A stretch of 11,049 nucleotides of DNA, from contig MGSU01000041.1 of NCBI GenBank assembly GCA_001799195.1, forward strand, positions 7,191 through 18,239, given 5' to 3'. Shown here in pieces: positions 3 through 11,049 of this stretch; the first letter of the stretch is position 1, and each line of letters opens with the position of its first letter. This DNA is from Deltaproteobacteria bacterium RIFOXYA12_FULL_61_11. GTDB lineage: Bacteria; Bdellovibrionota_F; JAHFAK01; YA12-FULL-61-11. The position numbers were made by a program, and so were the translations under genes. Below the pieces are notes generated by a model. It was given only the letters and a program-made list of their open reading frames with translations, had not been told where the DNA came from and searched no databases.

Positions 3-947
3 GCGCATCTCTTCGGGTACTTCGATGCAGTGTCCTACCTTCTCGCGGTGGTTTCGATCTCGCTGGTGCTCGCCCACCGGCCACTGGCCGCAGCTTTGGT
101 CTCCTCTACCGCACTGCTCGTCCACGAGGGATATTACCTGGTGGGGTTTCCCCCGGTGGTCTTGGCTTCGCTCGCCGCAGCGCCCACTAACGGCAGCCGT
201 CTGGACTGGCGATCGCTGGGCATTGTCGCAGGTGTACCCACCGTGGTATTCATGGCTATTCCCCTAGTCCAAGCCCAATGCACCGAGGGGATGATATTGA
301 GAGAGCAACTCCGCGGATATCTGGATTCCTTCGATTTCGTGCGGACGCGAAGCCGCGCGGTTGCCATCTGGCAGACGACGACCATTTTCGAGTTCTTCAG
401 ACACCAAGCCGGAGCTTTCCCTGCAAGTCTCTTCCATCCAGGGGTTGCCTCCTCCGTTCTCCCGTCCCTATTGCTCATGCTGGGTGTCCTGCATGGGACC
501 TTCAAACTCCCACCTTACAAAGGGCTGTCCCTAGCCCTGCTGGCCGTGGTACTTGGTCCTCTTGCCCTGCATACCGTGGCCTGGGATATCGCACGGATCA
601 GCAGTTATTCTCTAGGCAGCGGGTTCTTGGCCTGGCTGGTACTTGTTCGAACGAGAGCAGCACACCCCGTTTCCTTCCTCTGGATCATGCTCGCGCTGGG
701 CGTAGTATTCTGCAATACCTTCGGGCGCATCAGCTTAATGGATGGTGAGGTTGAACGTTATACCAACACCCAGCGGTTCTTCCTCTATGCACCGGCCATG
801 GGGCTGCTTGGTTGGATGGCCTTTACAGGCATCCGCGACTATTTTCGCACCACGAGTTCTACAACCAGTGATGCTTCCGTCAGGTTGGAGTCGGAAGGGG
901 CAAGGTCGACCCCCACCTCCCCACCCTCTGGTAGGGGGAACCTGTAA
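3..947 (+). CDS. Multi-pass membrane protein, 5' partial, probably surface-polysaccharide related
   Basis: The frame is open to the left edge of the window, and the codons before the first possible start (GTG at 30) already read as plausible protein, so the gene very likely begins outside. From residue 1 at position 30 there are about 305 residues with roughly seven hydrophobic stretches (near 2-14, 20-50, 64-82, 143-158, 166-184, 215-229 and 251-268). This indicates an inner-membrane protein. A His-Glu pair in a membrane segment (about 32-33) and a Trp-Asp-x-x-Arg motif (about 185-189) recall uncharacterised membrane proteins of exopolysaccharide and capsule clusters. That resemblance is from memory and I do not recognise a named family. 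The last 35 residues are polar, rich in Ser, Thr and Pro, and probably cytoplasmic or disordered. The neighbouring membrane glycosyltransferase starts within 20 bases of its stop, so the two are probably co-transcribed. It could be a polymerase, an acyltransferase-like protein or a GT-C enzyme. Confidence 0.75.
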   Translation, partial: AHLFGYFDAVSYLLAVVSISLVLAHRPLAAALVSSTALLVHEGYYLVGFPPVVLASLAAAPTNGSRLDWRSLGIVAGVPTVVFMAIPLVQAQCTEGMILREQLRGYLDSFDFVRTRSRAVAIWQTTTIFEFFRHQAGAFPASLFHPGVASSVLPSLLLMLGVLHGTFKLPPYKGLSLALLAVVLGPLALHTVAWDIARISSYSLGSGFLAWLVLVRTRAAHPVSFLWIMLALGVVFCNTFGRISLMDGEVERYTNTQRFFLYAPAMGLLGWMAFTGIRDYFRTTSSTTSDASVRLESEGARSTPTSPPSGRGNL

Positions 948-963
948 AGTGTCTCCCAGGTCG

Positions 964-2565
964 ATGATGGTGTCTGAACAGCAACGTCGATCTTTTGGCC
1001 CGGGGAAGATGTTGTTCCTCCTTTCCTGCACGCTCGTTGTCGGGGTTCGGATCGGCGCAGAGGCATGGATCAGCGAAGATGCGTTGATTACCTTCCGCAC
1101 CATCGACAATTTCCTACAAGGGTATGGTCTACGCTGGAATATTGATGAACGTGTGCAGGTTGCAACCCATCCACTCTGGATGCTCGTCAACGCGGCTCTC
1201 TACTCGTTGACGAAGGAGGCTTATACTACCCTGGTGATGCTCAGCTTGTTCCTCTCCATGGCCGCTTTCTGGCTGGGCTTCCGGTCGTTATTGCACCGAC
1301 CAGCTGCGGCCTTCGTGCTTCTCTTTGCCCCCTGGATGCTGTCGAAATCGCTCATCCTGTACGGAACCTCCGGGTTTGAAACTCCGCTTTCGTTCATGTT
1401 GTTGGCACTTTTCACGAACGAAGCGTTGGCGCAAGAACGCACCGGCAGGCTCCGTTGGGGATGGAGCGAACTCTATGCAGGGTTGATCGCCGTGAACAGG
1501 TTGGATCTCATCCTGCTGCTCTTGCCGGCGCTCGGCTATAGGTACCTCAGGCACCTGCCTCACGCAAGGTGGGGACGTCTGCTGCTCGGGTACTCTCCTG
1601 CGGCGTTCTGGTATCTTTTTAGCGTGTTGTATTATGGGTTTGCTCTCCCAAATACCGTGCTGGCGAAGCTGAGCGCAGAAATCCCATTACGGGAGTATGC
1701 CCGTGAGGGAATACTCTATGCCGCTGATTTCGTGCGCTGGGACCCCCTGGGGGTGTTCTTGGTGGTTGTGGCAGTGTCGACTGCAGGGATACTTGTCTTT
1801 CGTTGCGCCCGTATCTCTCCGGAGCAGAGGTCGCCCAACCTCGCGGCTCTGGGGGGCGGCTTGCTGGTATACAGCGCCTATGTCGTTGCGATTGGAGGCG
1901 ATTTCTTGTCGGGTAGATTCTGGGCGCCCGTCGTGTTCGTTTCCTCCCTCGTTGCTGCCTTTGGCGCCGAGGTCGTCCTTGGCCCAGCAACTCCGAACGG
2001 GAGGAGAACTCTTGTTGTCGCCGTTGCTTGTGCGGTAGTGTTTTTCCTCGCTGCCTCTGTCTTGGCAGACCATCTCGGCACCTGCTCCCGAAGAGGTCCG
2101 ACCAGCTCAATGGATCGATCCCTCGCCCACATTCGCCTGAACCACGACCTCACCTGGAGTATGAGCGAGACCGCCGCGGCCTGGTATTCCCGCGGCCTGG
2201 AATTCCGACGGGCTGCTGCCGAGCAAGGACGTCACGTCGTTACTTGGGGCAGTCTAGGCTTCACGGGCTTCGCCGCTGGGTCAGGTGTCACGATCATCGA
2301 TGTCTATGCCTTGGCCGATCCCCTCCTCTCACGATTACCCCTTGTTGATCGAACCACCTGGGAAATCGGCCACCTACGCCGTCCTGTCCCGCGTGGTTAC
2401 CTGCAGGCCCGCCGGACCGGATCACTCGCGTCCATGGACCCCCCGCTCGCGGAATACTATCAACGTCTTCGCCTCGTCGTCGCGGGGCCGATCTTCGACC
2501 CAGCGCGTTTGCGGGCGATTGCGGGTTTCCACCTCGGCAGCTACGATCACCTGCTCGAACAGTAG
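964..2565 (+). CDS. GT-C-type membrane glycosyltransferase (arabinofuranosyltransferase-like family)
   Basis: The predicted protein has 533 residues with many membrane spans and a soluble C-terminal part. Near the N-terminus a Glu-Asp-Ala-Leu-Ile-Thr-Phe-Arg motif (38-45) is followed by a Gly-rich turn, Asn-x-x-Glu-Arg-Val and Thr-His-Pro-Leu-Trp (about 50-72). This block is typical of polyprenyl-phosphosugar-dependent GT-C enzymes resembling mycobacterial AftB, where an acidic pair in the first periplasmic loop is catalytic. Further family-like marks are Leu-Pro-Asn-Thr (228-231), Gly-Gly-Asp with a following Gly-Arg-Phe (311-319), Asp-Val-Tyr-Ala-Leu-Ala-Asp-Pro (446-453) and Arg-Pro-Val-Pro-Arg-Gly-Tyr (473-479). 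It probably transfers a sugar to a glycan on the outer face of the inner membrane; donor and acceptor are unknown. The frame is open back to 742, but that stretch overlaps the preceding gene and reads as low-complexity, so I start at ATG 964. ATG 967, or GTG 949 behind an AGGGGG at 933-938, are alternatives. Confidence 0.85.
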   Translation: MMVSEQQRRSFGPGKMLFLLSCTLVVGVRIGAEAWISEDALITFRTIDNFLQGYGLRWNIDERVQVATHPLWMLVNAALYSLTKEAYTTLVMLSLFLSMAAFWLGFRSLLHRPAAAFVLLFAPWMLSKSLILYGTSGFETPLSFMLLALFTNEALAQERTGRLRWGWSELYAGLIAVNRLDLILLLLPALGYRYLRHLPHARWGRLLLGYSPAAFWYLFSVLYYGFALPNTVLAKLSAEIPLREYAREGILYAADFVRWDPLGVFLVVVAVSTAGILVFRCARISPEQRSPNLAALGGGLLVYSAYVVAIGGDFLSGRFWAPVVFVSSLVAAFGAEVVLGPATPNGRRTLVVAVACAVVFFLAASVLADHLGTCSRRGPTSSMDRSLAHIRLNHDLTWSMSETAAAWYSRGLEFRRAAAEQGRHVVTWGSLGFTGFAAGSGVTIIDVYALADPLLSRLPLVDRTTWEIGHLRRPVPRGYLQARRTGSLASMDPPLAEYYQRLRLVVAGPIFDPARLRAIAGFHLGSYDHLLEQ

Positions 2566-2751: not shown

Positions 2752-3486
2752 GTGCGTGAGGTGACCTCGTTCTCAGATTCCAACCTCGAGCAACCCAATC
2801 GCGCCGAGGGCGATGGCGCGCACCTGCAGGCCAACCTCGACCGCCTCAAACAAGAGGTCAATCGGGAACAGCGAGAACTCCTCGCCCGCGAGAAGAAGCT
2901 GAAACGGCAGGCCGAGGAACATGCAGGCGAACTCGAGCGACTGCGCCGGCAATTCCGCAGCCAAGTCGAAGAACGCGGCCAGGAAATGCACCGCCTTCAG
3001 GAGGCCCTCGAAACCACGGAGCGCCTCCGGGTGGAGGAACAGCGCACCTTCCTCGCGCTCCTGCAGGGGAAGGACGACCGCCTGGCTCAGCTCCAGGACG
3101 AGCTCCAGCGAACCCGGCACGAACTCTCGGAACAATGCCAGCGCGTCCTGGGACTCCAGGCCACGGTCGATCGTCTGGAGCGCTGCCTAGCCGATGAGCG
3201 CCAGACCGTGGCCCACAAAGATACACTGTTAGCGGAACGCCAGACCTGCGCGAACGAACTCGGCAAAGAGGCCAGAGCCCTGCGTCGACGCCTCGCCACC
3301 CAGGAACACCTCGTCGAAAGCCTGACCTCCTTCCCACCGCTGCGCCTCTTCCGAACCCTGCATCATGCGGGCAAGGTTTTCGGTTTCCGGTTGCCCATGT
3401 TGGGAGTCCTGACCCTGCTCGATGCCCTCAACTCCCGGTACATGGTCCGCTGGGAGCGCAAAACCAAGAAGCAGATCTTCCCTTGA
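2752..3486 (+). CDS. Coiled-coil protein with hydrophobic/basic C-terminal tail, function unknown
   Basis: The 244-residue protein starts at GTG 2752, eight bases after AGGGGG (2738-2743), a good ribosome binding site. Residues about 25-190 are dominated by Glu, Gln, Arg, Lys and Leu in heptad-like spacing, indicating a long, nearly unbroken coiled coil. From about residue 192 the character changes sharply. The last ~50 residues contain Phe-Pro-Pro-Leu-Arg-Leu-Phe-Arg, a hydrophobic patch without charges long enough to touch but probably not span a membrane, and a basic end (Arg-Lys-Thr-Lys-Lys). Similar coiled coils with a Pro-Leu-Arg tail are attached to, or lie beside, glycosyltransferases in polysaccharide clusters; this comparison is from memory. 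It may scaffold the enzymes encoded next to it or act as a chain-length ruler. No signal peptide is seen, so it is probably cytoplasmic. The next gene starts about 22 bases after its stop. Confidence 0.75.
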   Translation: MREVTSFSDSNLEQPNRAEGDGAHLQANLDRLKQEVNREQRELLAREKKLKRQAEEHAGELERLRRQFRSQVEERGQEMHRLQEALETTERLRVEEQRTFLALLQGKDDRLAQLQDELQRTRHELSEQCQRVLGLQATVDRLERCLADERQTVAHKDTLLAERQTCANELGKEARALRRRLATQEHLVESLTSFPPLRLFRTLHHAGKVFGFRLPMLGVLTLLDALNSRYMVRWERKTKKQIFP

Positions 3487-3508: not shown

Positions 3509-5932
3509 ATGAACATCCTGATGATCCACCCCCATGATATCTATTCCACCGCCGAACCGTGGACCGTGCGGGTCACCTATCTCGCCGATGAGTTCACCAG
3601 GGCGGGCCACCATGTCCGGGTGGTCTATCACCCCTTGGACCGGTCCACCCCGCTGGAGGTCCAGGCCGGACAGCAACGGTTCGCCTTCCCCACCTATCCC
3701 TTCCGCCGGGAGAACCGGTTCCTCTGGGAGAACACCCGCCGCCTGGCTCCTCACGCCCGCTGGGCCGACGTGATCCATTTCCAGAAATGCTTTTCGTATG
3801 TCAGCCTGCCGGCCCTGGCCCTGGGTGCTTTCCGGAACAGCCCGGTGCATTACGACTGGGACGACTGGGAGTACGAGATCTACAACTTCGCCCCCCTCAA
3901 CCGCACGGTGGGGTATTCCATCGATGCCTTCGAGAGGGCCCTCCCACGCCTGGTCGATACGCTCTCCTGCGCCAGTGAAGCCCTCAAGGACCTTGCCGAG
4001 CGCCGAGGCTTCCCCCGCCACCGCATATTCGACGCCCCGGTTGGAGCCGATACCAGGCGTTTCCATCCCGGGGTCAGCGGAGCCCGGATGCGGCGCAAGC
4101 ACGACCTCGATCGCAAGGTCGTCCTCTATCTCGGGCAGCTCCACGGCGCCCAGTACGCCGAGTTGTTCGTCCACGCGGCGAAGATGGTCCTCGACCGCCG
4201 CGACGACGCCCTGTTCCTGGTGGTCGGCACCGGGGACCGCTTCGGTCTGTTGCATTACCTCGCGGAACAACTGCACATTTCGCACAAGCTCGTCTTCACG
4301 GGCGGGGTCGATCATCGCCTGATCCCAGAGTACATCGCCGCCGCGGACGTGGCCGTGGCCTGCTTCGAGGATACACCGCAGACGCGTTGCAAGAGTCCGC
4401 TCAAGATCGTTGAATACTTGGCCATGGGCAAGGCCATCGTGGCCTCCGAGATGGGCGAGGTCTCTCGTATGATCGGTGACGCCGGAGTACTGGTCCCCCC
4501 AGCCGACGCCGCGGCCCTGGCCATCGGCATCGAACAACTCCTCGACGATGAGGGACTGCGCCGCGAGTTGGGCCGGCGTGCCCGCCTGCGGGCCGAAGAG
4601 ACCTACAACTGGACCAACACTGCGGCCAATCTGTTGGAAGCCTACGAAGTCGGGGTGGCCGAAACCAAGGGCCGGTACCGCCCGCGGCTCCTCTCCACCG
4701 CCCTCGAACTGCGGCCGGCCAAGGTCCGGGATTTTCTGCAACGCAACCGGGACTTAATGGGCGTGCTCGACGGCACCGAGGCCTTTGTCGGTCCCAACCT
4801 GCTCCAGATCGACCCTACCTTCACCTGCAATGCCGATTGCATCGGCTGTTGGTGCCGTTCGCCGCTGCTCCACGACAAAATGATGCCCCTGGAGGAACAA
4901 CGTATCGCCCTGCCTTGGAACATCATGGAACGGCTCATCCAGGACGCCGCGGCTCTGGGAACCAAAGAGATCTACTTGGCCGGAGGTGGGGAACCGTTCA
5001 TGTACCCGCACATCATGCCCCTCTTGCGGCTGATCAAACGGCAAGGGCTGGTCTGCTACCTCAACACCAATTTCTTGTTGGCCGACCAACGAAAACTCGA
5101 CGAGATCATCGAACTGGGCATCGACCACATCACGCTCAGCGTCTGGGCAGGAACCCCGGAGGTCTACAGTCTGACCCACCCCAACAAGACGGCGGAATCT
5201 TTCGAACAGATCCGGCGCATGCTGACGTATCTCAATGAGCACAAACGCAACCGCAAGCCGCTGATCAAGATCTACAACGTCATCAGCAACCTCAACTATC
5301 ACGACCTGCACAACATGCTGGCCTTCGCGGTCGGGACCGGCTCGGAATCGATCGAGTTCACGGTCACCGACGTGATCCCGGGGCGCACCGATTTCCTCCT
5401 CCTGAACGCGGAACAGCAACGCTGCTGTCACGAGTTGGCCTTGGAGATCCGGGCCAAGGCCCATACCCTGCCGCGCGACTTCACCCTGTTCCGCTTCGAC
5501 CAGTTCCTCCGCCGCCTGGCTGCGAACGAGGCCCTGACCGGTGACTATGACGCCCCGATCATCCACGAACTGCCGTGCACCATTGGTTGGACCTTCGGCC
5601 GGGTCAACAGCGATGGCGACGTCAATGCCTGCCTCAAGTCGCACAAGAAACCCATCGGCAATCTGCACCAACAACGGTTCCGCGAAATCTGGAGCGGCCA
5701 CAACGAGAAGATGGCCCAGTGGCGGCGGCACACCCGCGTGTTCGAGAAGAAGGGGCCCTTCTTCAAGGATATCGGCAACGACCCCACGGTCGAGGTCGGT
5801 TGCGTCAAGAGCTGCGACGACCTGGGCCGCAACACGTTCACCTACGACCGTTTGCTCGAGCTAGGGCCGTTGCGCCGACGCGCCCTGGCGCTCGCGGCCA
5901 AGGTCGAAAAACTCCGAGGCACCGCCCTGTGA
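3509..5932 (+). CDS. Fusion protein: GT4 glycosyltransferase domain plus radical SAM domain with SPASM/twitch-like extension
   Basis: One uninterrupted frame encodes 807 residues with two enzyme halves. Residues 1-385 are a GT-B fold, GT4-like glycosyltransferase. The N-terminal Rossmann half begins with Met-Asn-Ile-Leu-Met-Ile-His-Pro, and the nucleotide-sugar half contains Leu-Tyr-Leu-Gly-Gln (206-210), Val-Val-Gly-Thr-Gly (238-242) and the Lys-x-x-Glu-Tyr-Leu-Ala-Met-Gly block (299-307). Residues about 415-807 are a radical SAM enzyme. The [4Fe-4S] motif C-x3-C-x2-C is at Cys440, 444 and 447, Gly-Gly-Gly-Glu-Pro for SAM binding at 492-496, and C-x12-G-x4-C at 690-708 with further Cys at 765 and 769 suggests an auxiliary cluster. 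ATG 3509 (or GTG 3506) starts the GT4 fold correctly. Its ribosome site is weak, so coupling to the preceding gene is likely. The stop overlaps the next start by four bases. Each half is a confident family call; substrate and combined reaction are unknown. Confidence 0.9.
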   Translation: MNILMIHPHDIYSTAEPWTVRVTYLADEFTRAGHHVRVVYHPLDRSTPLEVQAGQQRFAFPTYPFRRENRFLWENTRRLAPHARWADVIHFQKCFSYVSLPALALGAFRNSPVHYDWDDWEYEIYNFAPLNRTVGYSIDAFERALPRLVDTLSCASEALKDLAERRGFPRHRIFDAPVGADTRRFHPGVSGARMRRKHDLDRKVVLYLGQLHGAQYAELFVHAAKMVLDRRDDALFLVVGTGDRFGLLHYLAEQLHISHKLVFTGGVDHRLIPEYIAAADVAVACFEDTPQTRCKSPLKIVEYLAMGKAIVASEMGEVSRMIGDAGVLVPPADAAALAIGIEQLLDDEGLRRELGRRARLRAEETYNWTNTAANLLEAYEVGVAETKGRYRPRLLSTALELRPAKVRDFLQRNRDLMGVLDGTEAFVGPNLLQIDPTFTCNADCIGCWCRSPLLHDKMMPLEEQRIALPWNIMERLIQDAAALGTKEIYLAGGGEPFMYPHIMPLLRLIKRQGLVCYLNTNFLLADQRKLDEIIELGIDHITLSVWAGTPEVYSLTHPNKTAESFEQIRRMLTYLNEHKRNRKPLIKIYNVISNLNYHDLHNMLAFAVGTGSESIEFTVTDVIPGRTDFLLLNAEQQRCCHELALEIRAKAHTLPRDFTLFRFDQFLRRLAANEALTGDYDAPIIHELPCTIGWTFGRVNSDGDVNACLKSHKKPIGNLHQQRFREIWSGHNEKMAQWRRHTRVFEKKGPFFKDIGNDPTVEVGCVKSCDDLGRNTFTYDRLLELGPLRRRALALAAKVEKLRGTAL

Positions 5933-7101
5933 AACTCGACCTCCCCGACGACCTGCTCGATCTCGCCGGTATCCTGCACGGCTCGCGGGCCTTCATCGGA
6001 CCCGAACACGTGGTCCTCGACCTGACAAATCGCTGCGAGCTCAACTGCCTGGGCTGCTGGACCTATTCCCCCCTGCTGCGCGGCCTGGAGCCCCCGGGAC
6101 TCTGGAAACATACCCAGCTCCGTTCAGCCATGGTCGAAACCCTGATCGACGACTTGGCCGACCTCGGCACCAAGCGTATCCGTTTCACCGGCGGGGGCGA
6201 ACCCTTCCTCCACCACAACGCCCTGGCCTTCGCTCGCCGGATCAAAGAACGCGGCATGACCCTGGCGGTGACCACCAGTTTCACCCCGGTCACCGTGCCC
6301 ATGATCGACACCATGATCGACCTGGGCCTCGACACCCTCTCGGTCAGCCTGTGGGCCGGCACTGCCGAGACCTTCAGCCGTACCCACCCCAACCGCACGG
6401 AGCGTACCTTCGAACGGGTCACCGAGAACCTGCGTCATCTCCTCGCCAACCGTCGCAACGGCAAGCCCGAGCTGATCCTCCTCGACGTGGTCTGCTCGAC
6501 CAACTTCCACGAAGTCCGCGGTATGCTGGAATACGCCCTCGAACTCGGGGCCGACGGCGTCTACTACACCCTCGTGGACGCGATCCGCGGCCGCACCGAT
6601 GGCCTCCTGCTCAATGCCGAGCAGCGCAACCTGGTCCTGGCCGAGGCCCCCGGCATCCTCGCCCGGGTGGAAGAGGTCCAGGCTACGGGCAAACCCTTCC
6701 TGTTGGACAACTTCGACGGTTTCCTGACCCGGCTGCGCTCCCCCGGCGCCGACCTCGGGGTCTATGACAAACAAGAACTCGAACACCTCCCCTGCACGGT
6801 GGGGTGGCATTTCTGCAGGATCCTCGCCGACGGTCGGGTCGCCCCCTGCTGTCGAGGAGCCGAACATCCCCTTGGGGACCTGAAGGAACAGCGTTTCAAG
6901 GACATCTGGCATTCGCCGACCTATGACGACTTCCGGCGCAAGGCCCGAGACCTGCCCAAGACCGATCCCTATTTCCACCGCCTCGGTTGTTACATCATGT
7001 GCGATAACCTGATGCACATCCGCAACCTCGAGCGCAAGCTGGCAGAACTGCCAGGCGAGGTCCGGGCCGAACTCCAGCGCACGGTGGAGGGCTTGTCGTG
7101 A
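5929..7101 (+). CDS. Radical SAM protein with SPASM/twitch-like C-terminus, paralogue of the fused domain upstream
   Basis: The protein has 390 residues. The [4Fe-4S] cysteines are Cys36, 40 and 43 (C-x3-C-x2-C, followed by Trp), the SAM-binding Gly-Gly-Gly-Glu-Pro is at 88-92, and C-x12-G-x4-C is at 289-307 with Cys354 and Cys358 after it. This is the same arrangement as the C-terminal half of the preceding gene. Shared blocks include Gly-x-x-Ala-Phe-x-Gly-Pro before the cluster, Leu-Trp-Ala-Gly-Thr (141-145; Val-Trp-Ala-Gly-Thr upstream), Thr-His-Pro-Asn (152-155) and Gly-Arg-Thr-Asp-x-Leu-Leu-Leu-Asn-Ala-Glu-Gln (221-232). GTG 5929 is chosen because it forms a GTGA overlap with the previous stop, sits nine bases after GAGG (5916-5919), and gives an N-terminus matching the paralogue; the open frame upstream of it overlaps the fusion gene. 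Radical SAM enzymes cleave SAM to a 5'-deoxyadenosyl radical; the target here is unknown. Expected to be cytoplasmic and translationally coupled on both sides. Confidence 0.9.
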   Translation: MKLDLPDDLLDLAGILHGSRAFIGPEHVVLDLTNRCELNCLGCWTYSPLLRGLEPPGLWKHTQLRSAMVETLIDDLADLGTKRIRFTGGGEPFLHHNALAFARRIKERGMTLAVTTSFTPVTVPMIDTMIDLGLDTLSVSLWAGTAETFSRTHPNRTERTFERVTENLRHLLANRRNGKPELILLDVVCSTNFHEVRGMLEYALELGADGVYYTLVDAIRGRTDGLLLNAEQRNLVLAEAPGILARVEEVQATGKPFLLDNFDGFLTRLRSPGADLGVYDKQELEHLPCTVGWHFCRILADGRVAPCCRGAEHPLGDLKEQRFKDIWHSPTYDDFRRKARDLPKTDPYFHRLGCYIMCDNLMHIRNLERKLAELPGEVRAELQRTVEGLS

Positions 7102-8459
7102 AAGTGTTCTTGGCCAATCCTCCCTGGCACAAACCCGGTTTTTACGGGGTGCGCGCCGGTTCGCGCTGGCCGCATTACGAACGGGAGGACATGGAGTACG
7201 TGCCCTTCCCCTTCTTCCTCGGTCACGCCGCGGCCATCCTGGTCGAGGACGGTTTTTCGACCTTGCTCGTCGACGCCGTGGCTGAGCATCTGCTCGAACC
7301 ACCGTTCTTGCAAACCCTCGAGGCCTTCTCTCCCGACCTCGTCCTGTTCGAGGTCTCGACCAGTTCCATCGCCTCGGACCTCGCCCTCGCGACCGAACTG
7401 CGCCGCCGGGGCTTCGCAGGCACCTTGGTCTTTGCCGGGCTGCACGCCCTGATGTACGAACCGGGTTTCCTCCAGGAACACCCTGAGGTCGACGTAGTCC
7501 TGCGAGGGGAATACGAATACTCCCTGCGGGATCTGTGCAGAGCGTTACGCGACGGCAAGACTACCGAGACCATCCCCGGCCTGCTGCTGCGCCGCGGGAA
7601 CGATCTCTTCGATACCGGCCGACGGCCGCCAATCATCGACCTCGACGCCCTCCCGTGGCCTGCCCGGCAGTTCCTCCCCATGCTGGCCTATCACGACGAG
7701 CCGGGCAATTTGGAGCGACCCAGCGTCCAGCTCTGGACCTCGCGCGGCTGTCCTTTCCGGTGCACCTTCTGCGCTTGGCCGCAGATCATGTACGGTAGCA
7801 ACTCGTACCGCACGCGTTCGGTGAGAGATGTAGTCGACGAGATCGAGTGGTTGGAACGGGCGTACGGGTTCAAATCCTTCTATATAGATGATGATACCTT
7901 CAACGTCCGGCGGCAGCGCGTGGTCGACTTCTGCGAAGAACTGCTGCGCCGGCGCATCGATCTGCCCTGGGCCTCGATGTGTCGGGCCGACCTGATGGAC
8001 GAGACCTTGCTCCAGACCATGCGTCGGGCAGGACTCTTCGCCGTCAAGTACGGAGTCGAGTCGGCTAGTCAGGCCTTGCTCGACGGTATGCGCAAGAACC
8101 TCGATGTGTCCAAGGCCATCGAGGTCATCCGCTACACCCAGAAGATCGGCATCAAGGTCCACCTGACCTTCGTCTTCGGGATGCCCGGCGAGACCCGCGA
8201 GAGCGCCGAGGAGACCCTGGCCCTGGCGCTCGACCTGTTCCCCGAATCGCTGCAGTTCACCATTGCCACCCCCTTCCCGGGCAGCCTCCTGTTCCGCGAA
8301 CTCGAGGCCGCCGGCAAGATCGAAACCTATGACTTCGACAGGTACGACGGCTTTCACACCGCGGTCATGGGCACCGAGGGTCTACCGCGGGAAGAGTTGC
8401 AGGCCTTCGTCGCCGATGCCAACCGCCGCTGGCAGCACGCCAGGTATGGAGTATGTTGA
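7098..8459 (+). CDS. B12-binding-domain radical SAM protein
   Basis: The 453-residue protein has the layout of the BchE/methylase-type radical SAM class. Residues 1-150 form a Rossmann-like cobalamin-binding-type domain beginning Lys-Val-Phe-Leu-Ala-Asn-Pro-Pro-Trp, with Ala-Gly-Leu-His (113-116) and Val-Leu-Arg-Gly-Glu-Tyr-Glu (134-140). A radical SAM core follows, with C-x3-C-x2-C at Cys218, 222 and 225. Tyr-Ile-Asp-Asp-Asp-Thr-Phe (262-268) and Phe-Gly-Met-Pro-Gly-Glu-Thr (360-366) are usual for this class. A canonical Asp-x-His-x-x-Gly cobalamin motif is absent, as in many members, so B12 use is likely but not certain. Family members methylate unactivated carbons or catalyse cyclisations and other radical changes; the substrate here cannot be told. 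GTG 7098 overlaps the previous stop as GTGA, six bases after GGAGGG (7086-7091), strong evidence for the start and for translational coupling. The stop TGA at 8457-8459 touches the next gene's ribosome binding site. Confidence 0.9.
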   Translation: MKVFLANPPWHKPGFYGVRAGSRWPHYEREDMEYVPFPFFLGHAAAILVEDGFSTLLVDAVAEHLLEPPFLQTLEAFSPDLVLFEVSTSSIASDLALATELRRRGFAGTLVFAGLHALMYEPGFLQEHPEVDVVLRGEYEYSLRDLCRALRDGKTTETIPGLLLRRGNDLFDTGRRPPIIDLDALPWPARQFLPMLAYHDEPGNLERPSVQLWTSRGCPFRCTFCAWPQIMYGSNSYRTRSVRDVVDEIEWLERAYGFKSFYIDDDTFNVRRQRVVDFCEELLRRRIDLPWASMCRADLMDETLLQTMRRAGLFAVKYGVESASQALLDGMRKNLDVSKAIEVIRYTQKIGIKVHLTFVFGMPGETRESAEETLALALDLFPESLQFTIATPFPGSLLFRELEAAGKIETYDFDRYDGFHTAVMGTEGLPREELQAFVADANRRWQHARYGVC

Positions 8460-8464
8460 AGGAG
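8459..8464 (+). promoter_or_regulatory. Ribosome binding site that sets the lipoprotein start at GTG 8471
   Basis: AAGGAG lies six bases before GTG 8471 and overlaps the stop codon of the B12-type radical SAM gene by one base. The in-frame ATG at 8453 has no comparable site at proper distance (a GGAG is only one base away). This favours GTG 8471 and suggests ribosomes finishing the upstream gene restart here. Confidence 0.6.
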
Positions 8465-8470
8465 AACTTC

Positions 8471-8848
8471 GTGCAGTGCCACCTGGCCTCGACCCGCCGA
8501 GCCTCCTGGGTCCTCTTGCTGCTCCTGACGGCTTGCTCCGACAATGGGGAACGCAGCGAAGCCGGCCGTGAGGCCGAAATGCTGTGTCGAACGAGCTGCA
8601 CCCACCAGAAGACCTACTGCGAGGGTATCGACCTCGCCCAGTGTCATGAGCTGTGCGCCTTCGTCCTGGACAGCCTCGAGGACGAGACGACCTGCCTCCC
8701 TCTCGCCGAGGCCCAGTGGCACTGTGACACGACGGTGGCCTGGGTTTGCTCCGAGAGTACCGAGGTCGTCGGCGAACACCTGGGCGCAACCGACTGCGCC
8801 ACAGAGATTGCCGCTTTCGAACGCGCGGGATGTAGCCCTGGGCAGTAA
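8471..8848 (+). CDS. Small cysteine-rich lipoprotein
   Basis: From GTG 8471 the protein has 125 residues. It carries a short basic N-terminus, a hydrophobic core with five leucines, and the lipobox Leu-Thr-Ala-Cys (19-22), so signal peptidase II should cleave before Cys22 and leave a lipidated protein of about 104 residues. Ser follows the lipidated Cys, which under the E. coli rule would send it to the outer membrane. The mature part has ten further cysteines (39, 43, 50, 58, 62, 75, 85, 93, 109 and 121), an even number that could form five disulfides; two occur as C-x3-C pairs. Small Cys-rich lipoproteins of unknown function are frequent in myxobacteria-like genomes. ATG 8453 is an alternative start that adds six residues and overlaps the upstream gene by seven bases. 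I recognise no family. Its tight placement after three radical SAM domains suggests shared transcription, and the link may be functional or merely positional. Confidence 0.75.
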   Translation: MQCHLASTRRASWVLLLLLTACSDNGERSEAGREAEMLCRTSCTHQKTYCEGIDLAQCHELCAFVLDSLEDETTCLPLAEAQWHCDTTVAWVCSESTEVVGEHLGATDCATEIAAFERAGCSPGQ

Positions 8849-8969
8849 GGGGTGCTAGCACGTGGATCTGTTCGGTGGAACGATGGAGATCTTGAAAGCA
8901 GGACCGAATTCGAAGCGCGACCTTTCTTCTGCTGCAAACGATAGTTCTGCGACCGGTCGAGGAGGAACA
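8849..8969 (+). other. Leader between lipoprotein and aminotransferase genes, likely non-coding
   Basis: The aminotransferase frame is open back to GTG 8862, nine bases after AAGGGG (8847-8852), so a longer protein is formally possible. Against it, only 16 of the 36 codons from 8862 to 8969 end in G or C, unlike the strongly GC-ending neighbours. The translated stretch is Ser/Gly-rich and precedes the usual family N-terminus. The segment contains an 8-base palindrome TGCTAGCA (8853-8860). I found no well-spaced promoter in it. Confidence 0.5.
8960..8965 (+). promoter_or_regulatory. Ribosome binding site that sets the aminotransferase start at GTG 8970
   Basis: AGGAGG lies four bases before GTG 8970. 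The nine bases AGGAGGAAC recur exactly before the next gene's ATG (10102-10110), so both genes use the same initiation context. This supports GTG 8970 over the distal GTG 8862. Confidence 0.6.
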
Positions 8970-10103
8970 GTGAAGCTCCAACCCCAGGATGCGCAGGCCA
9001 TTCCCATCTTCCGCTTGCACTATGATCAGGCCTTCCGCCGACGTTTCTATCAGGAGTGCGAGACCATCTTCGACCAGGGCTTCCTCAGCGATCACACCTA
9101 TGTGCGACGCTTCGAACGAGCCTTCGCCGAGTTCGCCGGACTACCCCATGCCGTGGCCACGGCCAATGGCACCCAGGCCCTCGAGCTGGCGCTGCGAGCC
9201 CTAGAGGTACGCGGAGGCAAAGTAGCGGTGCCGGCAAACACCTTCATCGCTACAGCCATTGCCGTACTCAACGCCGGGGCTACCCCGCTCGTCCTCGACA
9301 TCGAACGAGAAGGTTTGGGCTTGGACCCGATCGAGTTGGAAAGCGCGCTCCAACGAGAACGGCTCGAGGCTGTCATCGTGGTACATATCGGCGGGGTGCC
9401 CTCCCCCAGATTACCTGAGGTGGTTAGGCTCTGTGCTGCCTTCGGAGTACCGTTGGTCGAGGATTGCGCCCATGCCCATGGGGCTCGACTGCAGGGTGCG
9501 CCGGTGGGGAGCTTCGGTGTGGCCGGTTGCTTCAGCTTCCACACCACCAAGGTGCTCACCGTCGGTGAGGGCGGGATGGTGGTCACCTCGGATGCGGGTT
9601 TCCATACTGCGATGGGTTCAGTGCGGCGTTTCGGTATGAATCCCGAACTACCCATCGAGCACATCCGCGAGGGCAGCAACATGAAGTTGGGCGAATTCCA
9701 AGGGTTGCTCGGTCTCTTGGAGTTGGAGCGGGGGGTCGAGCGCTTGGCCCGGCGGCGGCACCTCGCCGGCTTATATCGCCGTGGTCTCGAGGGCTCGGCC
9801 TGGAGACTCTTGCAGAGCGAGCCGCTCGAGGACGGGGCTTACTACAAGCAGGTCGTGCTCGGGGAAATCCCGCGCGCCAGGATCGAGGAGGCCTTCGCCC
9901 GGGCCCGCATCGCGCTGACCGGAGGAGTGTATTACCTCCCCCTGCAGCGGCAGCCGTCGCTGCGCACGTGTACCCAGGGGCGTTGCTACCCCGTCAGCGA
10001 ATGGTTCGCCGATCATCACGTCTGCCCGCCCTGTTATCCAGAACTCGAGGACTGCGAGGTGCAGAGGATCTGCGAGGTCTTGCTAGAGCTGGACGCGAGC
10101 TAG
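8970..10103 (+). CDS. DegT/DnrJ/EryC1/StrS-family PLP-dependent aminotransferase
   Basis: The 377-residue protein begins in the usual way for sugar aminotransferases, with Ile-Pro-Ile-Phe-Arg at 11-15 and a Phe-Leu-Ser motif near 38-40. Asn-Gly-Thr-Gln-Ala (66-70) contacts the cofactor phosphate, Val-Glu-Asp-Cys-Ala-His-Ala-His-Gly (163-171) supplies the Asp that pairs with the PLP ring nitrogen, and His-Thr-Thr-Lys (191-194) carries the Schiff-base Lys194 before a Gly-Glu-Gly-Gly turn. Enzymes of this family add an amino group to nucleotide-linked keto sugars or to cyclitols, in the cytoplasm, using Glu or Gln. The length fits the family. An oddity is the C-terminal cysteine set (334, 339, 352, 355, 362 and 368), including a Cys-Pro-Pro-Cys where relatives usually have Leu-Pro and Tyr-Pro positions. 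The next gene follows after seven bases, so the two are almost certainly co-expressed. The family call is confident; the exact sugar is unknown. Confidence 0.92.
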   Translation: MKLQPQDAQAIPIFRLHYDQAFRRRFYQECETIFDQGFLSDHTYVRRFERAFAEFAGLPHAVATANGTQALELALRALEVRGGKVAVPANTFIATAIAVLNAGATPLVLDIEREGLGLDPIELESALQRERLEAVIVVHIGGVPSPRLPEVVRLCAAFGVPLVEDCAHAHGARLQGAPVGSFGVAGCFSFHTTKVLTVGEGGMVVTSDAGFHTAMGSVRRFGMNPELPIEHIREGSNMKLGEFQGLLGLLELERGVERLARRRHLAGLYRRGLEGSAWRLLQSEPLEDGAYYKQVVLGEIPRARIEEAFARARIALTGGVYYLPLQRQPSLRTCTQGRCYPVSEWFADHHVCPPCYPELEDCEVQRICEVLLELDAS

Positions 10104-10110
10104 GAGGAAC

Positions 10111-11049
10111 ATGCCGCAGAAGGTTCGCGGCCAGACCGCCGAAATTTCCTACTTGATGCTCGAGGCCAATTCGCAGTGTAATTTGCGCTGTCGGACGTGT
10201 ACCCGCGAGTTGTTGGCCCGGCGGGGGTTGCGTCGGCCAGCGAGGCTCGACGCCGCTACATTGCGTTTCCTGCTCAGCCGCCTCGCCGGACTGACGATCG
10301 ACACCATCAAGTTCGAGGGCCTGTCCGAACCGATGCTCCATCCCGATTTCGCCGAATTGGGGGCGATCCTGCGCGAGCACTACCCCGAGGCCTTCCTCAT
10401 CGTCGCGACCAATGGGCAGTATCGCGCCGAGAAAACCCCTCTCCTCGCCACCATCCCCGTCATCGATATGCTGTATCTCTCCATCGATGGTTACGGTAGG
10501 AACTACGAACTGCAGCGCCGAGGAGCGCTCTGGTCCCGTTTCTTGCGCACGCTGGCCGTACTGCGGGACAGAGTGCCCCCGGAAGAACGTCGCAGGAAAC
10601 TCTTCTTCAACGTCACCGTGACGGAGCACACGTACCGGGACCTGCCGCTCGTGTATGACCTCCAACGCGAGTATGGTTTGGCCGGGGTGCGTATCAACCT
10701 GTGCCAGCACTGGGACGGCGACGAGGTCAATCCCTGGTCCTTCCCCTCCGAGATGCTGCACTTCCTACGGGTCTATGCGGCTGATGTCAAAGGGGTTGCC
10801 GGTTGGACCTATCGGCAGTGTTTCTGGCCCTTTTCCGGCTTGGTGGTCGATGTCAACGGCAATGTCCGGACCTGTGTGCTGGACACGACCGCCCCGCCCC
10901 TGGGCAACCTCTTTGTCCAAGAGCTCCCCGACATCTTCGAACGTTCCGGGCACTACCTCGCCACGCGCAGGGCCCTGCGACGCGATCAACCGGGGCCGCG
11001 CTGTCGGACCTGCGATTACGCCGGCCTCTCTGGTCTCCTGTCCGAGCTC
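10111..11049 (+). CDS. Radical SAM protein with SPASM/twitch-like C-terminus, 3' partial
   Basis: The frame starts at ATG 10111, three bases after AGGAGG (10102-10107), and stays open for 313 codons to the right edge, so the true end lies outside. The [4Fe-4S] motif C-x3-C-x2-C is at Cys23, 27 and 30. The SAM-binding position reads Gly-Leu-Ser-Glu-Pro (70-74), not Gly-Gly-Gly-Glu-Pro. Ala-Thr-Asn-Gly-Gln (99-103) and Leu-Ser-Ile-Asp-Gly (123-127) are typical core strands. A C-x12-G-x4-C unit (237-255) is followed by Gly-Asn-Leu and by Cys298-x2-Cys301, indicating an auxiliary iron-sulfur cluster of the SPASM or twitch type. It is clearly more distant from the two paralogues upstream than they are from each other. 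The immediately preceding aminotransferase gene is probably its partner. A DegT aminotransferase with a radical SAM enzyme is known from DesI/DesII in desosamine synthesis, where DesII deaminates the amino sugar, but equivalence is not shown here. Judged by the C-terminal cysteines, little of the domain should be missing. Confidence 0.88.
   Translation, partial: MPQKVRGQTAEISYLMLEANSQCNLRCRTCTRELLARRGLRRPARLDAATLRFLLSRLAGLTIDTIKFEGLSEPMLHPDFAELGAILREHYPEAFLIVATNGQYRAEKTPLLATIPVIDMLYLSIDGYGRNYELQRRGALWSRFLRTLAVLRDRVPPEERRRKLFFNVTVTEHTYRDLPLVYDLQREYGLAGVRINLCQHWDGDEVNPWSFPSEMLHFLRVYAADVKGVAGWTYRQCFWPFSGLVVDVNGNVRTCVLDTTAPPLGNLFVQELPDIFERSGHYLATRRALRRDQPGPRCRTCDYAGLSGLLSEL

Follow-up and report, generated by a model that had tools for sequence, protein, structure and literature searches.

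The window, i.e. the whole 11,049-nt stretch of DNA analysed here, carries a gene whose single reading frame covalently joins a GT-B glycosyltransferase (GT) to a radical SAM enzyme of the Twitch type. This fusion is a new domain architecture inside known superfamilies. We consider it somewhat probable that the fused protein is an enzyme of a surface-glycan module, in which a sugar would first be transferred and the same glycan then edited by radical chemistry.

Architecture of the fusion protein

The 807-aa frame contains no internal stop, and one and the same Pfam scan detected Glyco_transf_4 (residues 20-184), Glycos_transf_1 (197-360), Radical_SAM (436-606) and SPASM (690-739) in it, all above their gathering cut-offs. 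The central claim of the sequence-only reading, that one frame encodes both enzymes, is thereby borne out, and the boundaries proposed there (1-385 and 415-807) were nearly right, the sole disordered segment of the structural model being residues 392-401. Mechanical ORF calling placed the start at 3422. As the homologues of the fusion begin with the Met of the motif M-x-I-L-M-x-H-P-H-D, which is coded at 3509, the latter position is taken to be the correct start (Table 1).

Table 1. Features of the window, with residue numbers referring to the fusion protein
Feature	Position	Strand	Remark
607-aa hydrophobic ORF	742..2565	+	Real start probably more internal; matches a membrane arabinofuranosyltransferase model weakly; may be a GT-C enzyme
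Coiled-coil protein with C-terminal hydrophobic helix and ...KKQIFP tail	2752..3486	+	Directly upstream of the fusion; weak tail-profile match (E 4.5e-3)
GT-B glycosyltransferase / Twitch radical SAM fusion gene	3509..5932	+	807 aa
GT half, residues 1-386	3509..4666	+	GT-B fold nearest MshA
HYDWDDWE, residues 114-121	3848..3871	+	Invariant in 35 fused and split GTs (alignment A2)
KSPLKIVEY, residues 295-303	4391..4417	+	In place of canonical EX7E; K295, S296, P297, L298, K299, E302 and Y303 invariant
Linker, residues 387-402	4667..4714	+	16 aa, disordered, unconserved
Radical SAM half with Twitch-type auxiliary cluster domain, residues 403-807	4715..5929	+	
CNADCIGC (C440, C444, C447)	4826..4849	+	Predicted radical SAM cluster ligands
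C690...C708 (CX12GX4C)	5576..5632	+	Predicted auxiliary cluster ligands
C765...C769 (CX3C)	5801..5815	+	Predicted auxiliary cluster ligands
RS2, second Twitch/SPASM radical SAM enzyme	5929..7101	+	Shares 39% identity with the fused half; GTG start overlaps the fusion stop (GTGA)
B12-binding radical SAM protein (B12-rSAM)	7098..8459	+	Resembles HpnJ/BchE, though under the cut-off; overlaps RS2 by GTGA
DegT/DnrJ/EryC1/StrS aminotransferase	8862..10103	+	Amino-sugar biosynthesis
Further radical SAM/SPASM gene	10111..11049	+	Extends past the window end

An AlphaFold2 model of the full protein shows confident domains (mean pLDDT 93.9) on either side of the disordered linker segment, with a pTM of 0.57, a value at which the mutual orientation of the halves is not fixed by the model. 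Among the fused homologues the linker varies from ~15 to more than 100 residues, and its sequence is unconserved. It had been suggested from the sequence that an intermediate might be channelled between the halves, and that structure prediction could show whether the active sites face each other. The model defines no orientation that would speak to the second point, and the pTM of 0.57 together with the disordered, unconserved linker of variable length lends no support to the first. Because the linker is variable and the orientation not fixed, we favour flexible tethering over a rigid channel.

The GT half has a GT-B fold and is nearest to MshA (Z 41.9 over 362 residues, rmsd 2.5 Å), and it has in common with MshA, PimA and other GT4 transferases both the GT-B fold over its full length and the Pfam domains Glycos_transf_1 and Glyco_transf_4. 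It differs from them at the catalytic positions. The Arg and Lys of the phosphate-binding GRxxxxK motif of MshA and PimA align with Q210 and A214/Q215, residues that are kept as such in the fused GTs and in most split GTs, and the first Glu of the EX7E motif is replaced by C294 (Cys or Thr in fused relatives), the second Glu, E302, being invariant. The GT half is therefore a GT4-like GT-B enzyme and not a canonical GT4. Thus, the label GT4 given to it earlier holds for the fold and the Pfam domains but not for the canonical Arg/Lys and first Glu, and the accompanying statement that both halves keep their family motifs, although accurate as regards the radical SAM half, applies to the GT half in part only. 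The GT family has an invariant set of its own (HPHD, EPWTxR, HYDWDDWE, YxGQ and KSPLKxxEY, with GQLHGAQY also in the signature). This signature argues for an active but divergent GT site, judging from conservation; transferase activity is not assured, since the canonical phosphate-binding Arg/Lys and first Glu are missing.

The radical SAM half displays the hallmarks of its superfamily, i.e. the CX3CX2C motif, the GGE-type motif AGGG[ED]P and a PF04055 score of 59.2 bits against a cut-off of 29.5. SPASM domains are characterized by a seven-Cys motif, CX9-15GX4C-CX2CX5CX3C-C, for two auxiliary clusters, whereas Twitch domains hold one cluster (PMC6231123). Across the 39 sequences compared, seven Cys do not vary, namely the three of the radical SAM cluster and four auxiliary ones (C690, C708, C765 and C769). 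Because just these four auxiliary Cys are conserved and SPASM needs seven, the fused half is of the Twitch type, with ligands for one predicted auxiliary cluster as in BtrN (Z 19.4 over 232 residues), rather than SPASM-like as originally described.

The structure search was run with the radical SAM half folded alone (pLDDT 96.1), the list from the whole-model search being filled by GT matches. In VIA-align the closest folds were BlsE (Z 27.1), DesII (Z 25.5), SkfB (Z 24.9) and SuiB (Z 24.0), with PqqE also among them, and the best PDB profile match was BtrN (2.4e-12). Sugars or an aminocyclitol are the substrates of BlsE, DesII and BtrN; SkfB and SuiB modify peptides. The fold therefore leans only slightly towards sugar substrates, a lean resting mainly on context, given that by Z the two peptide enzymes are nearly as near as BlsE and DesII. 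BtrN likewise has a four-Cys Twitch domain; however, sequence identity to BlsE, DesII and BtrN is ~15%, none of the three is fused to a GT, and the likeness is one of fold. Named NCBIfam equivalogs were rejected, all scores being far under cut-off: the best radical SAM match, TIGR04317 (tungsten cofactor oxidoreductase radical SAM maturase), scored 85.3 bits against 380. The window's genome contains many more genes for radical SAM relatives of the fused half (contigs C245, C280, C151, C139, C100 and C5), several of which encode a pair of radical SAM domains or long additional domains.

Distribution and origin of the fusion

A scan of 84,980 species genomes yielded 80 loci related to the fusion, 11 of which encode both halves as a single frame. 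The fused loci come from a Pseudomonadota MAG (L032), Wallbacteria (L033, L034), Planctomycetota (L036), Cloacimonadota (L035, L037, L038) and Myxococcota (L039, L040, L041), plus L100, the phylum labels being those of the MAG records and possibly imperfect. The fusion is also carried by a genome, G036, that is related to the window only at the domain level, bringing to 12 the other loci, all from independent assemblies, with the same domain order in one frame. Most genomes of the phylum of G036 carry the fusion: it is full-length in four further genomes, and the join is in frame in two more, where the fusion is truncated by a contig end (G056) or has a frame break within the GT half (G055). 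One Wallbacteria genome has a second fused copy. Full-length fusions thus total 18, window included; 13 fused proteins can be aligned end to end, and whole-protein identity among fusions falls to 42-53%.

These homologues bear directly on whether two genes could have been joined by an assembly or frameshift artefact, a concern that the origin of the window from a draft genome of 342 contigs might raise. Given 17 other full-length fusions from independent assemblies, we assign this explanation next to no probability, and an assembly join is ruled out. The same proteins answer the suspicion that homologues might always be split into two genes, and they provide the chains with both a GT and a radical SAM domain that a domain-architecture search had been expected to look for. 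In the literature searched no description of a GT-radical SAM fusion was found, the sole paper naming both domains dealing with unrelated conflict systems. This agrees with the earlier statement that no characterised enzyme of this architecture is known, but among uncultured lineages the architecture is common.

When 75 radical SAM domains were placed in a tree, a single branch (SH-aLRT 80) set apart all 13 of the fused halves then known, and none of 500 shuffles was equally clustered. In the GT tree, the fused GTs group with two others, one cut at a contig end (L110) and one a lone GT (L078). Because the fused radical SAM halves group together, they probably go back to one fusion, and a single event followed by spread or loss would be the simplest reading, with moderate support from the trees. 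A viral or plasmid origin was rejected, since no relatives of the fusion were found in viral contigs and no plasmid records covering most of the fusion query were found.

In Omnitrophota, Woesearchaeota and others, the GT, at 42-52% identity, is encoded by a gene of its own. Of the 50 split loci that are 10 kb or longer, 38 also contain a radical SAM relative (identity 36% or more), a co-occurrence that is not built in because loci were retrieved by either half of the fusion. That the split partners occur together, and within glycan clusters, supports the original proposition that both halves belong to the same pathway or product. The radical SAM domain of split loci is often joined to B12-radical SAM domains (28 such chains), and some chains carry three to five radical SAM domains. 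Giant chains of the latter kind, mixing B12 and Twitch domains, were seen at L113:6953-12997, L034:11649-18224, L088:1000-6786 and L056:157-5199.

Neighbouring genes and the upstream tail

The fusion, RS2 and B12-rSAM are coupled, as indicated by their GTGA start/stop overlaps. The window's RS2 is matched in 69 related loci (in some via the fused half itself) and its B12-rSAM in 59, including a 56% identical copy in the fused locus L039; the best NCBIfam match of B12-rSAM is HpnJ, at 242 bits against a cut-off of 577.6. Since both proteins recur in relatives, the conserved core consists of the GT, one or two Twitch enzymes and B12-rSAM. A short ORF rich in Cys, which carries a signal of the lipoprotein type (LLTAC; 8453-8848), sits between the genes for B12-rSAM and DegT. 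Homologues of this ORF, the DegT aminotransferase, the 607-aa protein, the coiled-coil protein and the last radical SAM gene were absent from related loci at E 1e-15, and all five were rejected as core parts.

The neighbours found in relatives comprise ABC2_membrane, ABC_tran and Wzt_C (O-antigen-type export), GT2, GT4, PF00953 and PMT_2, as well as epimerases, carbamoyltransferases and asparagine synthase. Hallmarks of O-antigen ABC clusters, i.e. Wzm/Wzt, a polyprenyl-phosphate sugar transferase and GTs, occur near several relatives. No Wzm/Wzt exporter was found in the window or on its own 18-kb contig; the glycan assignment is therefore carried by the relatives, as the window's contig has the DegT gene but no exporter. 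Two further arrangements were observed among relatives. Genomes of G036's phylum encode the second Twitch enzyme as a fusion with a carbamoyltransferase N-domain (L112:4736-7426, L127, L128, L129, L130 and L131), and a short frame of its own immediately 5′ of that Twitch chain codes for the corresponding C-terminal piece of the carbamoyltransferase. In Omnitrophota clusters, an ABC ATPase domain with a C-terminal region of ~700 aa adjoins an ABC-2 permease (L102:2773-5532 and similar); by analogy with WbdD/Wzt systems, such a long chain might act as a chain-length ruler.

The product of the gene that immediately precedes the GT frequently terminates in a hydrophobic helix, basic residues (LKK-R) and the sequence '...IFPG'. 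In 48 of the 80 loci, a profile built from 18 tails matched no more than 350 nt upstream of the GT, a count that is partly by construction because 18 of the 48 tail-positive loci supplied the profile. When 16,883 ORFs were searched, nearly all confident matches lay within 350 nt or a few kb upstream of a GT. The tail exists as a standalone microprotein (~40-50 aa) or is carried by coiled-coil or B12-rSAM proteins; examples include the window's 2752-3486 frame, L060:3526-3645, L090:9220-9339, L053:8-133 and a tail ending at 7758 in L034, among others. The tail could possibly serve as a membrane dock for the GT.

Function of the fused enzyme

A role in surface-glycan assembly is suggested by the neighbours, namely the second Twitch enzyme and B12-rSAM, and the exporters, GTs and carbamoyltransferases of relatives. 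We infer the substrates, the order of the steps and the benefit of the linkage as follows. The N-terminal GT-B domain would add a sugar to a growing, probably lipid-linked glycan. The C-terminal Twitch domain, with SAM, its radical cluster and one auxiliary Fe-S cluster, would then abstract a hydrogen from a sugar of the same glycan, which would be oxidised, epimerised, deaminated or otherwise rearranged. The co-translated RS2 and the B12-binding radical SAM enzyme may carry out further steps on the same sugar or chain. Covalent joining would hold the radical enzyme at the site of transfer by a flexible tether, not a fixed channel.

Alternatively, the fusion could merely ensure co-expression or co-localisation of two enzymes acting at different steps with no shared substrate, e.g. 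if a nucleotide sugar was edited before transfer. The long, variable, disordered linker and the halves whose orientation the model does not fix would fit this explanation, as would the fact that separate genes suffice in most lineages. The substrate of DesII is a nucleotide sugar, and DegT-type aminotransferases make such substrates; DesII is among the nearest folds and a DegT gene is present in the window. That gene, however, is not conserved in related loci, and the retention of the fusion down to the lowest whole-protein identities observed argues for some benefit of linkage, so that we find co-expression alone rather doubtful.

The nature of the product also has to be considered. In the biosynthesis of the hopanoid cyclitol ether, the GT HpnI adds GlcNAc, HpnK deacetylates it and the radical SAM enzyme HpnJ makes the cyclitol ether (PMC12583986). 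This is a precedent for sugar transfer followed by radical SAM rearrangement on the acceptor, with HpnJ being the best match of the window's B12-rSAM; there, however, the genes are separate and the product is a lipid, whereas the fused enzyme here is of the Twitch type and not B12-binding. A product other than a polymer, namely a small glycosylated molecule or a glycolipid of the membrane (resembling a hopanoid cyclitol ether or an aminocyclitol), would agree with the HpnJ-like protein, with a fold resembling BtrN, BlsE and DesII, all small-molecule enzymes, and with a GT nearest to MshA and PimA, whose acceptors are small or lipid. It nevertheless appears unlikely to us, as the ABC-2/Wzt_C exporters, polyprenyl-phosphate sugar transferase and several GTs of relatives suit a polymer better. 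Even less probable is a RiPP system in which a SPASM-type enzyme modifies, and a GT glycosylates, one precursor. MftC and MftF of mycofactocin are such a pair of radical SAM/SPASM enzyme and GT serving one product, SkfB, SuiB and PqqE are among the closest folds, and many split GTs are immediately preceded by a conserved membrane microprotein of ~40 aa. Mycofactocin, however, has separate genes, a peptide precursor and an RRE; here both precursor and RRE are absent. The fusion protein has no RRE domain, the genome's three PqqD matches are all on other contigs, with none on the window's contig C41, and the small-ORF comparison revealed no conserved precursor-like small ORF besides the membrane-tail microprotein, which is found, too, at the C-terminus of enzymes and coiled coils and thus fits an anchor better than a substrate. 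A RiPP precursor was therefore rejected.

The surface-glycan reading could be extended, although tentatively, to an undescribed glycan assembly line of uncultured bacteria and some archaea. Radical editing would possibly take place there during chain growth, by radical SAM enzymes (Twitch and B12, often several per chain) fused to transferases, with the GT held at the membrane by the '...IFPG' tail protein. Radical SAM enzymes edit free nucleotide sugars, antibiotics and lipids, and in the literature searched we found no description of an enzyme that covalently joins sugar transfer and radical editing. The preservation of the fusion across many lineages is strong evidence that both steps belong together, and it offers a concrete handle on the uncharacterised, radical-SAM-rich glycan clusters of Omnitrophota, Woesearchaeota and other uncultured lineages.
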